Both the position numbers and the translations under genes were made by a program. Below the pieces are notes generated by a model, which had not been told where the DNA came from, made no database searches, and worked only from the letters and a program-made list of their open reading frames with translations. This document shows positions 13,112 to 27,446 of a stretch of DNA of 36,994 bases, in pieces (positions within the stretch are counted from its first letter, which is position 1; each line of letters begins with the position of its first letter). Source of the stretch: a virus; the IMG/VR virus record IMGVR_UViG_3300033148_002399, positions 1-36,994 of that record; one strand, 5' to 3'.

Positions 13112-14041
13112 ATGAATATAATTAAATACCGATTAATGGATGAAGAACCCGGAGCAGGTGGTGGCGAAGGTGGGGAGCCAGCAGCAGCGGCACCCGATTG
13201 GCGTGAATCTATCCCGGCTGAATACAAAGACTCAGCTATGTTTGCTGAAGATCAAGTAAAAGATTTGCCAAGCCTGATGACTCAGTTTGCTAACTCTCAG
13301 CAATTATTGGGTGATTCAATTCGGATACCCGGTGAGAACGCTGATGATGATGCGCTTAACCGTTTCAATGAAAAGCTCTCTGGTGTTAAAGGTGTAACTC
13401 GTATCCCCGGCATGGATGCGTCCGAAGCTGAAGTGAGTGAGTTCTTTGCCAAGCTAGGCGTGCCTGACACAGCGGCTCAATACGAAATGTACGCACCAAC
13501 AGATGAAGAGGTGCCTCAAGGTTTAGAGCTTGATAACCGGCTTGAGAATGGGTTTGGTGAGATTGCACATAAGTTGAATCTTACACCCGGTCAGGTGAAA
13601 GGGTTGTCTGAGTGGTTCACCAAGGACACCATTGAAACCGCTAAAGGCCAGATGGAAGCTAAAAACACTATGCTTGCAGAGCTGCAAAAAGAATACGGCA
13701 ATAACTTTGAAGCGCGCATGTCATTAGCTACCACTGTTATCGAGAAGTTTGGTACCAAGTATGCTCTCGAAGATTTGAAGGGTGACTTAGGCAATAATCC
13801 CGGCTTAGCTATGATGTTGGCTGATATTGGGCTGGCTACCACTGAAGACGGTATGATGCGATTAACCCCTGAAGGCGGTGAAATCACGAAGTCAGCAACA
13901 GAAGTGCAGATGGAAATTGATGAGTTAATGTCTGATAAAGCATACGCAGACAATAAAGCTGATAACCATAATGTTGTAGTTGCCAAGGTTAAGAAGTTAT
14001 TTGAACAGCAAGAGCTCATCAAAAAGCAGGCTCAAGCTTGA
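13112..14041 (+). CDS. Capsid scaffolding-like protein
   Basis: The protein has 309 residues, with ATG 13112 after AGGAGAACC. A disordered Gly/Ala/Pro/Glu N-terminus is followed by a 'W(R)xSIPxEYK ... L..qf.nsq.llg..IRIPGE' block (about 30-75), then long acidic helices up to a Lys/Gln-rich C-terminal helix (about 285-309). This layout matches scaffold proteins encoded just before the capsid in many podoviruses. It would shape the prohead around the portal and then leave. Its stop codon overlaps the -35 box of the capsid promoter. Confidence 0.82.
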   Translation: MNIIKYRLMDEEPGAGGGEGGEPAAAAPDWRESIPAEYKDSAMFAEDQVKDLPSLMTQFANSQQLLGDSIRIPGENADDDALNRFNEKLSGVKGVTRIPGMDASEAEVSEFFAKLGVPDTAAQYEMYAPTDEEVPQGLELDNRLENGFGEIAHKLNLTPGQVKGLSEWFTKDTIETAKGQMEAKNTMLAELQKEYGNNFEARMSLATTVIEKFGTKYALEDLKGDLGNNPGLAMMLADIGLATTEDGMMRLTPEGGEITKSATEVQMEIDELMSDKAYADNKADNHNVVVAKVKKLFEQQELIKKQAQA

Positions 14042-14066
14042 CAGTAACCACTAACTGGCATATAAG
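14038..14066 (+). promoter_or_regulatory. Strong sigma70-type promoter for the capsid gene
   Basis: A perfect -35 (TTGACA, 14038-14043), a 17-base spacer and a -10 TATAAG (14061-14066, five of six consensus) are visible. Transcription should start near 14073, giving a leader of about 200 nt before the capsid ATG. The -35 box overlaps the scaffold stop codon. This is the best promoter match I see for the late genes. Confidence 0.75.
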
Positions 14067-14072
14067 TTGTTT

Positions 14073-14276
14073 TACAAATCCCTTCATTGGATTGTAGCTG
14101 GATAAAGAGAGCGGTTCCTCCCGGGGCCGCTCTCAATGTTCAATCAGGTAGCCGCAAGGTCTGACAAGCTCACCGATGACGTTAGCTAGCGAATAGCTAG
14201 GATAGTCCGAATTACCGGGTAGCTTCCGAAAAAAGAATGGGCATAGTGCCTTAATTAACTTTTTTGGAGACTACTA
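14073..14276 (+). promoter_or_regulatory. Structured 5' leader of the capsid mRNA
   Basis: No gene is seen in this stretch. Four stem-loops are visible in order. (1) GAGAGCGG (14107-14114) pairs with CCGCTCTC (14127-14134), an 8-bp GC-rich stem with no T-run after it. (2) TCAG (14144-14147) pairs with CTGA (14161-14164), enclosing CC-GCAA-GG. (3) TAGCTA (14183-14188) pairs with TAGCTA (14194-14199) around a GCGAA loop. (4) CTTCCGAAAAAAG (14223-14235) can pair with CTTTTTTGGAG (14259-14269), using all 11 bases of the second arm with two bulges on the first; the small GGCA/TGCC hairpin (14240-14250) is nested inside. Arm two of stem 4 contains the GGAG ribosome site of the capsid gene. The element could control capsid translation or mRNA stability. 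It matches no RNA family I can name. Confidence 0.55.
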
Positions 14277-15176
14277 ATGAGTTATTCCATACCCGAAAAT
14301 CATGTGCAGCAGTTTAAAGCGAACCTTCGCCTGTTATCACAACAAAAATCTTCCCGCTTACGCCGTACCGTCCGTGACGATGGTGACATTGTAGGTGACC
14401 GCGTGCATTTTGACCGTTTAGCGGCTTCTGAAGCACAACGCATTACTGACCGTCATTCTGATACTCCGTTGAACAACAGTGATCACTCACGCCGTTCCGC
14501 GTTTATGTATGACTATGACTGGGCTGAATTAGTTGATAAGCCTGACCGCTTAAAGACGTTATATTCTCCTGATAACTACTACGCCATGAATGGCCGCGCA
14601 GCATTAGGTCGTGCTCAAGATGATGAGATTATCTCAGCTTTAGGTGGCAACGCTTATGGCGGTAAAGATGGCTCAACAACAATCGCATTTAAAGCAGCTC
14701 AAGTGGTTGCTGTAGATGATCACACGTATGACTCTGCTTCTGGTAACGCAGGCATGAGTATCACTAAATTAATGGTGGCTCGTGACATTATCTATGGTGC
14801 TGATGTTGATGAAGACCAAAAACTTTATTGTGCATTGACACAGAAAGCATTGTCTTCACTTCTTTCAGGTGACAGCTATCGTGCTGCAAACATCGACTTC
14901 GCGGCAGTTAAGGCTCTCGTGAATGGCGAAATCAATACTTTATTGGGTATTGAGTTTGTTCGCATTGAACGCCTTATCGCTGACGCTAACACTCACCGCG
15001 AGTGCTTTGTGTACACTGAGACTGGCATTGGTGCTGGCACACCAGCTGACATTACAGTGGATATTGGCCCTCGTCGTGATAAGCGTAACTCAACACAGAT
15101 TTACGCAATGATGAGTTGTGGTGCTGTTCGTGTTGAAGATGAGCACGTAGTTAAGATTCTTTGCGCTAGCAACTAA
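14277..15176 (+). CDS. Major capsid protein
   Basis: The protein has 299 residues, with ATG 14277 after TTTTTTGGAGAC. The pattern 'V.QFKANLRLLSQQKSSRLR..V' at the N-terminus, DRLAASEAQRITDRHSDTPLN, YDYDWAELVDKPDRLKTL near residues 79-95, and GRAALGRAQDDEIISAL near 105-121 match the phage capsid family of short-tailed phages (HK97 fold, Phage_capsid_2 type). It is shorter than T7 gp10A but normal for this family. It has its own promoter and leader and sits after the scaffold and before a decoration-like protein. Its expression is expected to be the highest in the genome. Confidence 0.88.
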   Translation: MSYSIPENHVQQFKANLRLLSQQKSSRLRRTVRDDGDIVGDRVHFDRLAASEAQRITDRHSDTPLNNSDHSRRSAFMYDYDWAELVDKPDRLKTLYSPDNYYAMNGRAALGRAQDDEIISALGGNAYGGKDGSTTIAFKAAQVVAVDDHTYDSASGNAGMSITKLMVARDIIYGADVDEDQKLYCALTQKALSSLLSGDSYRAANIDFAAVKALVNGEINTLLGIEFVRIERLIADANTHRECFVYTETGIGAGTPADITVDIGPRRDKRNSTQIYAMMSCGAVRVEDEHVVKILCASN

Positions 15177-15183
15177 TCTGGTT

Positions 15184-15201
15184 CCCGGTGTAAGAGCCGG
15201 G
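15184..15201 (+). other. Hairpin after the capsid gene
   Basis: CCCGG (15184-15188) and CCGGG (15197-15201) form a 5-bp stem with an 8-base loop. Outer bases GGTT and AACC may extend it, and CTTTTT follows some ten bases later. It could be a leaky terminator or an mRNA 3' stabiliser that sets the capsid-to-decoration ratio. Confidence 0.4.
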
Positions 15202-15230
15202 TACTTTGAACCCTTTTTAGGAGAATTATC

Positions 15231-24592: not shown

Positions 24593-27446
24593 TTTACAGC
24601 AGACAGGCGTTTCATTTACTGATGAGCTTTCGCCTGATGTTATCGAAGAAGCCAACCCTTTGTTCATGGGTGAGCAGAAAGAACCTATTGAATTAGAACC
24701 AGAAGTTGAGGGTGGTGAGCCAGTTATGCTTGCAGGCTTAAGTTCTGCATTCACCAAGGGCTTAAAGCAGTCATTGGACAAACAGGCCATCCCATCCATT
24801 AAAGTCACTGACGAGCCTTCTGAGGTCACTGAAACCTTCATTGAAAAACACCAAATGGATATTGAGTTGCCTGATAAAGCAGTCAATATCAATCTTAATT
24901 ACATGGATGCCCCCGATAAAGTAAACCAAGTTATTGTCGATATGGCTGAAATCATGCCAAAGCAGGTCGATGAGGCACGTCGAGGCGTGCAGGGTTGGGA
25001 TCAAACTAAGTTACTGGCCAATGAATTAGGCTTAACTGAAGAAGAATTATTAGCCCGTCCTATTGGTGAGGCTTGGAATGCTGAAAAGATTACCGCTGCT
25101 CGTTGGGTTTTAGGTGACACCAGAGACAAAGTTGCTGCTCTCGCTGAAAAGATTGCAGCAAAAGATGCGACTGATATTGAAAAGGCTGATTTCCGTGGTT
25201 TGCTTTCTAAGTACGCTGGCATTCAAATGCAGATTCACGGCATGGCAGCAGAAGCAGGTCGAGCATTAAACGCATTTAAAATTGTTTCTCAGTCTGGTGA
25301 ATTACGAAAAGCTGAGATTGACAACCTATTAGTTAGGCAAGGTGGTGACATTAATCGGCTGGCAGAAGGCTTTATTGGTCTGGATAATGCAGGCTCACAA
25401 GCGAAATTTGCTCGTGATATGGCAAGACCCGGCGCTTACCGTATGTTTTTAGAGTATTGGATTAACGCTTTACTCTCTGGCCCAACTACCCACATGGTAA
25501 ATACGACATCAAACGCTATTGTATCCATGGCCCAACTCCCAGAAACGCTAATGGCATCAGGCTTCGGCAAGATATTCTCAGATGGTAAAGGGGTTCAAGC
25601 CGGTGAAGGCATGGCCAGAATGTACGGCCTTTACTCTGGCATGAAAGATGGCTGGGTGGCCGCCGCTAAAGCGTTCAAATCTGGCGAACCATCGGATGCA
25701 GCACAAAAATTAGAGGTTCCTGATCATACTGCGATTACAGGAAAGAACGTGGAAGCCGCTATACAACGAGGGGCTGAATCAATCAATTACCTCATCCCCG
25801 GACAAGGTATCGACCCTAGCAGTATTAACTTGAGCGACCCCGTACAAGCTGCGATTGATCACATGGGTACATTCATGCGGCTGCCAACCCGATTCTTATT
25901 GACTGAAGACGAGTTCTTTAAAGGCATTAACTATCGGATGGAGTTGAACGCTCAAGCCTATCGAGCAGCCAAAGCAGAAGGGCTCGAAGGTCAGGAAATG
26001 GCTGAGTTTCTAACAGAATTTATAGATAACCCACCAGAGAATGTGAATATTGCAGCGATTGAATCTGCTAAATATCACACTTACACAAATGAATTAGGCC
26101 AACCCGGTCAGAAATTTGCTGGCGCATTAAACAGCTTTCCGATTTCTCGATTGATTATCCCGTTTTTCCGTACACCTGTGAATATCCTTAAATACTCAGC
26201 AGAGCGAATGATACCCCCTATACCGGGCATTTCTACTCGATTGAAAGATGACTTGCTTAGTGGCGATCCTGTCCGTAGAGATATGGCTATGGGCCGTATG
26301 AGCATGGGTGCAATGGTGTGGGCTTCAGTCGTTCCGTTGATTTCAGAAAACTTTGATTGTGAAAAAGAAATGTGCATTACAGGTGGCCCACCTTCAGACC
26401 CTAAGCTTCATGCAACATTGAAGCGTACTGGGTGGAGAGAATACTCACTTAAAATCGGTGACAAATATTACAGCTACAGCCGGTCAGATCCGTATGGTCA
26501 GATGATTGGTATAGCCGCTGATGCAGCACGCATATTGCCGCAATTAGGTGATGAAGATGCCAGCGAATACGCTACTGGTTTAGTGATGGCCGTATCAAAT
26601 AACGTAATAAACAAGACTTACATGAGCGGTATTTCTGATGCTATGGAAGTTTTCAGCTCCAACGACAAAGAGAAATGGCTTAAATACGCCCGTAGGTTTG
26701 CAGCAAGCACAGCAGGCTCGGCCATTGGTCAGCTTGAACGAGCAGTAGACCCAACATTCCGCGTTGCTGATAATTTACACGAGAAGTTCTTGGCAAAAAC
26801 ACCGGGGCTTTCTACAGTGTTACCCCCATATCGTGACCTCTGGGGTAGACCTCAGCTTAATAGTGTATGGGGTGACGAAATTACTCAATACATGGCTATT
26901 GTGTCACCGATTAAAACCAGCCTTTCCAAGCCTGAGCCCATTGATAAAGAGCTGTATCGACTCGGTTATGCTCCGGGCCGTATCCGTAAAATCATGGATG
27001 GTGTTGAATTGGAGCCAAAAGAGTACGATTACTTGGTTCGCATGGCTGGAAACGACTTAAAAGCACCAACTGACACCATTATTTCTGTTTATAACCCGGT
27101 AACTGGCGAAGCTGATGACATAGATATTTCAGGTAAAGGCACAATGAACGCTTTAAATGCGTTGATTCGCTCACCTGTTTACAAAACGCTATCCGACTCC
27201 GTTGACCCACCGGGCCAAAAGGTTCGCTTGCTCCGTAGTGTTGTTGATCAGTTTCGTGATTTGTCAAAATTAGCTACAATCAAGAAACATGAGCGGTTAA
27301 TGGATGCTATTATCGAGTCTAAGTCTGAAGATTTACGTGCTATCGGTGCACCAGATGAAGACGTTGATGAAGCAAACACAACAATGCGAATGGAGTACCG
27401 GGATACATTCGATGCCCTTAACGATATTGATTTAACAGGCGATTAA
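24579..27446 (+). CDS. Large internal virion / ejection protein, 955 aa
   Basis: ATG 24579 follows CGAGG and overlaps the previous gene by 14 bases. An acidic N-terminus leads to helical repeats (about 130-290). A conserved-looking block, MFLEYWINALLSGPTTHMVNTTSNAI (in pieces, about 289-314), is typical of large phage virion proteins of this class. Hydrophobic helices occur near 555-590. CEKEMCI near 599-605 may form a disulphide. It probably enters the host with the DNA and helps build the conduit; no enzyme motif is seen. Confidence 0.72.
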   Translation: MINSNLQQTGVSFTDELSPDVIEEANPLFMGEQKEPIELEPEVEGGEPVMLAGLSSAFTKGLKQSLDKQAIPSIKVTDEPSEVTETFIEKHQMDIELPDKAVNINLNYMDAPDKVNQVIVDMAEIMPKQVDEARRGVQGWDQTKLLANELGLTEEELLARPIGEAWNAEKITAARWVLGDTRDKVAALAEKIAAKDATDIEKADFRGLLSKYAGIQMQIHGMAAEAGRALNAFKIVSQSGELRKAEIDNLLVRQGGDINRLAEGFIGLDNAGSQAKFARDMARPGAYRMFLEYWINALLSGPTTHMVNTTSNAIVSMAQLPETLMASGFGKIFSDGKGVQAGEGMARMYGLYSGMKDGWVAAAKAFKSGEPSDAAQKLEVPDHTAITGKNVEAAIQRGAESINYLIPGQGIDPSSINLSDPVQAAIDHMGTFMRLPTRFLLTEDEFFKGINYRMELNAQAYRAAKAEGLEGQEMAEFLTEFIDNPPENVNIAAIESAKYHTYTNELGQPGQKFAGALNSFPISRLIIPFFRTPVNILKYSAERMIPPIPGISTRLKDDLLSGDPVRRDMAMGRMSMGAMVWASVVPLISENFDCEKEMCITGGPPSDPKLHATLKRTGWREYSLKIGDKYYSYSRSDPYGQMIGIAADAARILPQLGDEDASEYATGLVMAVSNNVINKTYMSGISDAMEVFSSNDKEKWLKYARRFAASTAGSAIGQLERAVDPTFRVADNLHEKFLAKTPGLSTVLPPYRDLWGRPQLNSVWGDEITQYMAIVSPIKTSLSKPEPIDKELYRLGYAPGRIRKIMDGVELEPKEYDYLVRMAGNDLKAPTDTIISVYNPVTGEADDIDISGKGTMNALNALIRSPVYKTLSDSVDPPGQKVRLLRSVVDQFRDLSKLATIKKHERLMDAIIESKSEDLRAIGAPDEDVDEANTTMRMEYRDTFDALNDIDLTGD

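Follow-up and report, generated by a model that had tools for sequence, protein, structure and literature searches.

What are the 235 bases between the scaffold and major capsid genes of this phage for, when they hold no gene? The window analysed here is the whole stretch of DNA presented above, a 36,994-base IMG/VR virus genome that profile matches to its gene content assign to a short-tailed phage, and its head and tail genes encode a terminase, a T7-like head-tail connector (PF12236), a phrog_3742 protein, a major capsid protein (MCP) and tail tubular proteins. It also carries, at 1993-2844, a phosphoadenosine phosphosulfate reductase-like gene (phrog_424), of a family that occurs as a phage auxiliary gene.

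The capsid leader and its setting

The first-pass annotation of this genome described the interval as gene-free, with four stem-loops, the last of which hides the ribosome site (SD) of the capsid gene, and that description holds: from the scaffold end at 14041 to the capsid start at 14277 there is no open reading frame of 60 or more amino acids, and the stem-loops are present at 14107-14134, at 14144-14164, at 14183-14199 and as the SD stem. Two viral contigs, L001 and L002, whose capsid protein is 91% identical to that of the window, both retain the leader. The features of the locus, apart from two hairpins that are introduced below, are as follows.

13112..14041, + strand: capsid assembly/scaffold-like gene (phrog_3742), upstream neighbour of the leader; PHROG match, E 4e-31
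14038..14066, + strand: sigma70-like promoter, TTGACA-N17-TATAAG; from sequence, both hexamers invariant in L001/L002
14107..14134, + strand: stem-loop 1, GC-rich, loop region UUCCUCCC; MFE fold, loop conserved in L001/L002
14183..14199, + strand: stem-loop 3 (UAGCUA/UAGCUA); MFE fold, GCC/GGC instead in L001
14219..14235, + strand: anti-SD arm GUAGCUUCCGAAAAAAG, of which 14219-14227 is common to hairpin P; coevolution, folds
14259..14274, + strand: SD arm CUUUUUUGGAGACUAC, with GGAG at 14266-14269; coevolution, folds
14277..15176, + strand: major capsid protein gene (PF19821, phrog_3437); E 1.3e-72 and 5e-77

The promoter would place the start of the capsid mRNA near 14073. It is absent from the output of our promoter scan because the scan consensus demands a T at the last -10 position, and the leaders of Alteromonas phage ZP6 and Vibrio phage phiVC8 have TTGACA/TTGACT-N17-TATAAT at the equivalent position. 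The terminator scan found no terminator-like site (a GC-rich hairpin followed by a T-run) within 14042-14276. On the far side of the gene, just past the capsid stop codon, 15178-15230 contains a hairpin (CCCGG/CCGGG) and a T-rich stretch; the same scan does not list this site, which may curb readthrough towards the late genes that follow.

The leader folds at -81.4 kcal/mol, against -66.1 +/- 4.4 kcal/mol in dinucleotide shuffles (z -3.45), and none of the 200 shuffles does as well. Its SD stem had been annotated as CTTCCGAAAAAAG (14223-14235) pairing with CTTTTTTGGAG (14259-14269) through 11 pairs; those positions are exact, but the stem has 15 pairs, GUAG at 14219-14222 pairing further with CUAC at 14271-14274 to give GUAG-C-UUCC-(G)-AAAAAAG (14219-14235) opposite CUUUUUU-GGAG-A-CUAC (14259-14274). 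In the computed ensemble of the naked RNA the GGAG at 14266-14269 is almost never free (unpaired probability 0.00-0.13), in agreement with its reading as a hidden ribosome site, and the small GGCA/TGCC hairpin reported inside the stem is there too (14240-14243/14247-14250). The first-pass annotation had looked to relatives for a conserved leader and compensatory changes, and both are found. L001 and L002 keep the hairpin TCAGGTAGCC-NNAA-GGTCTGA, the strand CCGGGTAGCTTCCGAAA and the SD stem, in which AAAAAAG/CUUUUUU has become AAAUAAG/UUUUAUUU.

Comparison of the leader DNA with phage records gave chance matches only, and Rfam 15 yielded no covariance-model match at gathering score for the window and ten related loci, which bears out the earlier failure to place the leader in a known RNA family. 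The RAGATH-7 model (RF03159) reached 16.7 bits against a threshold of 111.8, over model positions 172-208 only; this weak match to its 3' end falls at window positions 14036-14071, on the capsid promoter, and may reflect merely a promoter inside that Rfam model. Readings of the leader as a ribozyme, a terminator or a known riboswitch were rejected because nothing matched, and a search of the open-licence literature returned no published description of it.

A bulge motif in two permuted copies

Two things go beyond the first-pass annotation: a widespread motif sits in the second stem, and the strand annotated as 5' arm of the fourth builds a permuted copy of it as well, at 14200-14227. Comparison of leaders from 160 protein-selected loci reveals a shared internal motif, in which a G-C pair is followed by a GUA bulge of 3 nt and then by a G-U wobble and a C-G pair. 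In hairpin F the order is 5' E-GUA-GC-D loop D'-GU-E', and in hairpin P it is 5' D-GU-E' loop E-GUA-GC-D', so that P is a circular permutation of F.

14144..14164, + strand: hairpin F, UCAG[GUA]GCC-GCAA-GGUCUGA, bulge GUA at 14148-14150; model R2, E 2.4e-6, and covariation
14200..14227, + strand: hairpin P, the permuted copy, GGA(U)AGUCCG-AAUUAC-CGG[GUA]GCUUCC, bulge GUA at 14219-14221; model R1, E 2e-5, and covariation

The covariance models of F and P, whose training set included the window's own hairpins, each have one match in the 37-kb window, both inside the leader. With leaders chosen by protein similarity only, the strict motif occurs 61 times in 300-nt MCP leaders as against 7 times in the rest of the 0.56 Mb of protein-selected loci, both strands counted. 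Among 143 distinct leaders there are 38 strict F and 29 strict P hairpins, where the flanks lead one to expect 0.05 and 0.10, and GUA is the sole enriched bulge of the 64 triplets (67 occurrences, against 3 or fewer for any other). The pattern GGGTAGCTTCCGAAA was rejected as a search handle, its matches alone being mostly unrelated coding sequence, and a single MCP alignment of 13 sequences proved too diverse for scanning the collection, so that clade alignments were used.

Many leaders without GUA share the architecture, with bulges AUA, AGA, AUU, GCA or CUU and with the wobble replaced by A-C or A-U, in what are relaxed and noisier assignments. The relaxed P descriptor finds a hairpin in 80 of 152 leaders but also in about 33 of 152 shuffled ones, hence the strict GUA form alone is secure leader by leader, and it is on the strict form and on non-circular tests that we rely. 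In F, 95.2% of cells are paired against 73.4% when shuffled, with 50 double-change cells against 16.5 (none of 500 shuffles reaches 50), and in P the figures are 92.5% against 77.4% and 28 against 8.3; with the partners shifted one column, pairing falls to about 44-53%. Because the hairpins had been selected with a descriptor that requires pairing, an anchor-only test was added. Under it, position D1 of P is paired in 50 of 59 cases (null 27, maximum 39), and the E4 pair of F, which lies outside every search pattern, in 52 of 78 (30.6, maximum 46), with GC, CG, UA and AU all common. On this comparative footing we regard the capsid-mRNA 5' leader as shown to be a conserved cis-regulatory RNA, which in the window has two copies of the motif, the second strand-permuted.

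The GUA motif is found ahead of capsid genes from no fewer than three families, phrog_3437, phrog_9953 and the epsilon15/GP7 type (phrog_212), and possibly a phrog_10 capsid as well (L056). The phiVC8, VP5 and 23E28.1 Vibrio phages have F and P in capsid leaders of 145-168 nt, part of which the phiVC8 record annotates as a putative terminator; an obvious SD stem is absent from the phiVC8 and VP5 leaders, though both hairpins are present. ZP6, whose capsid protein is just 29% identical to that of the window, has two F copies, and Pelagibacter phage HTVC010P has, by the relaxed and noisier assignment, a variant form with bulge AGA. One locus with an epsilon15/GP7-type capsid (L344) has F, P and a 10-bp SD stem. 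In the epsilon15-like relatives phiV10, BPP-1, Vibrio 1.021.A and a Nostoc phage the gap is only 3-19 nt long, and the leader is missing. The phrog_9953 group, about 20 loci found through the motif itself, has F only; 20 of 85 pattern matches fall 60-107 nt before such capsid genes, far above chance. In the window, the phiVC8-like phages and L344 the leader occurs together with a scaffold of family phrog_3742; a scaffold HMM search found no homologue in the phrog_9953 loci. In bacterial genomes the 118 pattern matches look like chance; 8 are noncoding or otherwise flagged and none is clearly leader-like.

In several phages F starts 4-17 nt past the -10 box, at the extreme 5' end. Some phrog_9953 leaders (L254, L257, L264, L272, L277, L297 and L320) have another conserved stem around F, GCACCC...GGGCAGGCG, which is interrupted by a 1x3 internal loop (A/CAG). 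We also observed that the spacer of the capsid promoter in L169, L170 and L037 is an inverted repeat complementary to the 3' half of F (GAACGGACCAAATG..CATTTGGTCCGTTC in L169), and that in phiVC8, VP5 and 23E28.1 (promoter region of L572-L574) the promoter lies within another inverted repeat. Transcripts reading through would hold both arms of these repeats, which are possible DNA operators.

Hairpin P against the SD stem

Since the 3' strand of P (14219-14227) doubles as the 5' arm of the SD stem, the two are mutually exclusive, and sequence and coevolution show that P and the SD-hiding stem cannot coexist. Over 50 leaders, the P 3' strand forms a duplex with its own SD region of -10.1 kcal/mol on average, compared with -6.71 +/- 0.34 when partners are permuted (0 of 20,000 permutations as good), and the test is non-circular because the SD played no part in picking P. 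With a control strand the corresponding values are -7.18 and -6.37, from which we take it that base composition or descent accounts for part of the signal, and a small part only. This coevolution, together with the compensatory changes in the closest relatives and the strand common to a conserved alternative hairpin, supports the earlier suggestion of a translational switch.

In the window, the fold with F and the SD stem is computed at -71.4 and that with F and P at -67.2. Truncated transcripts ending at 14231-14262 are predicted to fold P, and those ending at 14268 or later the SD stem, and the idea of a timing device is compatible with this to the extent that P forms until the SD is made and the SD stem then wins. 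Locking P raises the computed mean accessibility of the SD over 50 leaders modestly, from 0.26 to 0.37; the gain exceeds 0.2 in 16 leaders, while 2 are clearly closed (Wilcoxon p 1.7e-4). In six leaders (L197, L198, L203, L230, L232 and L234) and their relatives, GRCGA recurs 5-10 nt 3' of P within the 5' arm of the SD stem, which suggests a specific internal loop for the closed state too.

We posit, as the best explanation overall and with somewhat better than an even chance of being right, that the leader is a factor-controlled two-hairpin switch over the capsid SD. Transcribed from its own putative promoter at 14038-14066, the nascent RNA would form P first and leave the SD open; once the SD has been transcribed, the SD stem, more stable by computation, would close the ribosome site. 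A trans factor, most likely a protein, would bind the bulge motif of F and P, and by holding P would keep the SD open and capsid translation on, the leader closing when the factor is missing. We infer the ON direction from the modelled folds, in which the mean opening of the SD is modest, and the phiVC8 and VP5 leaders, with both hairpins but no obvious SD stem, speak against the model.

Candidate partners and alternative readings

It is possible to read the leader as constitutive structure, in which the hairpins, without a ligand, would lend the mRNA stability and reduce or adjust translation of the capsid gene. Hairpins at the 5' terminus do protect mRNA, F sits at the extreme end in several phages, and the equilibrium fold by itself hides the SD. 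Such a reading leaves unexplained both the second, permuted copy and an invariant core (GUA, G-U, C) amid stem pairs that all change, and we think it very unlikely.

Autogenous control, in which the capsid protein or the scaffold binds F and P and regulates its own translation as RNA-phage coat proteins do, is also unlikely in our estimation, if less so. The MS2/R17 coat protein operator is a bulged hairpin near the gene start, and in the leaders of ribosomal-protein mRNAs under autogenous control a protein-binding internal-loop motif governs access to the SD. The capsid leader resembles the former in having a bulged hairpin near the start of a phage gene, with capsid-related control possible, and the latter in combining a candidate protein-binding motif with predicted control of SD access. 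It always stands before a capsid gene, and in the groups named above it keeps company with the phrog_3742 scaffold. Of 28 F-P pairs within one leader, 14 have identical bulge triplets against 5.4 expected, as would follow if one partner reads both hairpins, and on the capsid tree the P bulge changes at least 21 times; such turnover with matching is expected of a coevolving phage protein. The matching may, however, reflect descent, since the test for co-change has just 4 independent pairs on supported branches to work with (sign test p about 0.25). Unlike the RNA-phage operator, the leader belongs to double-stranded DNA phages, has two permuted copies and is common to unrelated capsid families, and the formation of P, more than 30 nt from the SD, exposes the SD instead of occluding it. 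Unlike the ribosomal-protein leaders it offered no rRNA mimicry, which was not sought systematically. Since unrelated capsid families (phrog_3437, phrog_9953, phrog_212/GP7, perhaps phrog_10) have this motif in front of their genes and the phrog_9953 loci yielded no scaffold homologue, and with epsilon15-like phages having the phrog_3742 scaffold but no leader, the partner is probably not the capsid protein itself; the earlier suggestion of capsid self-repression is likewise not favoured, given these families and the exposure of the SD by a held P. A host factor or another phage protein would then be the remaining candidates.

We consider it improbable that a small molecule turns capsid translation on or off through F and P as a tandem aptamer, even with a permuted tandem motif of invariant core and an aptamer strand that doubles as anti-SD. 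In translational ON riboswitches like the adenine-sensing add element of Vibrio vulnificus, the SD region of the free RNA is paired with a 3' strand from the sensing domain, and a held domain therefore releases the SD. By computation, the P strand similarly alternates between its own domain and the SD (14219-14227), but the domain here consists of two small bulged-helix copies, one permuted, in phage capsid leaders, and has no known ligand, unlike the add adenine riboswitch that is the subject of PMC8342710. The core, a 3-nt bulge and three fixed pairs, is small, its bulge varies often between phages, and the motif is missing from bacterial genes. An equally improbable reading makes the nascent RNA with its two hairpins a ligand of host RNA polymerase that would suppress pausing or termination throughout the late operon. 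Its precedent is the put RNA of HK022, about 70 nt with two stem-loops, which acts on RNA polymerase (PMC9378689), and the capsid leader is alike in that a pair of bulged stem-loops lies close to a phage promoter, near the mRNA start. In the capsid leader, unlike in put, one strand coevolves with the ribosome site; neither this nor the position of P, about 45-70 nt before the start codon, would be explained, and in the window no U-tract follows P or the SD stem. The early regions of HK022 examined, in which put itself was not located, held no strict F-P pair. They gave one weak F-type match (E 0.026; L589 6385-6411, - strand, about 26,384-26,410 of the HK022 record, left operon), probably a chance one.

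A dedicated RNA switch over capsid translation is, to our knowledge, no established feature of tailed double-stranded DNA phages, and many marine and Vibrio phages have this leader. We would tentatively give a little less than an even chance to the broader proposal of an undescribed class of phage leader RNA, in which one trans factor acting on a permuted pair of bulge motifs flips the SD stem and turns MCP synthesis on, and which is common to unrelated capsid families, with variants in abundant marine phages such as HTVC010P. Because the motif is an exact handle, with its GUA bulge and compensable pairs, and because cultivable phages carry the leader, one could isolate directly the factor that governs when, or in what amount, the most abundant virion protein is made.
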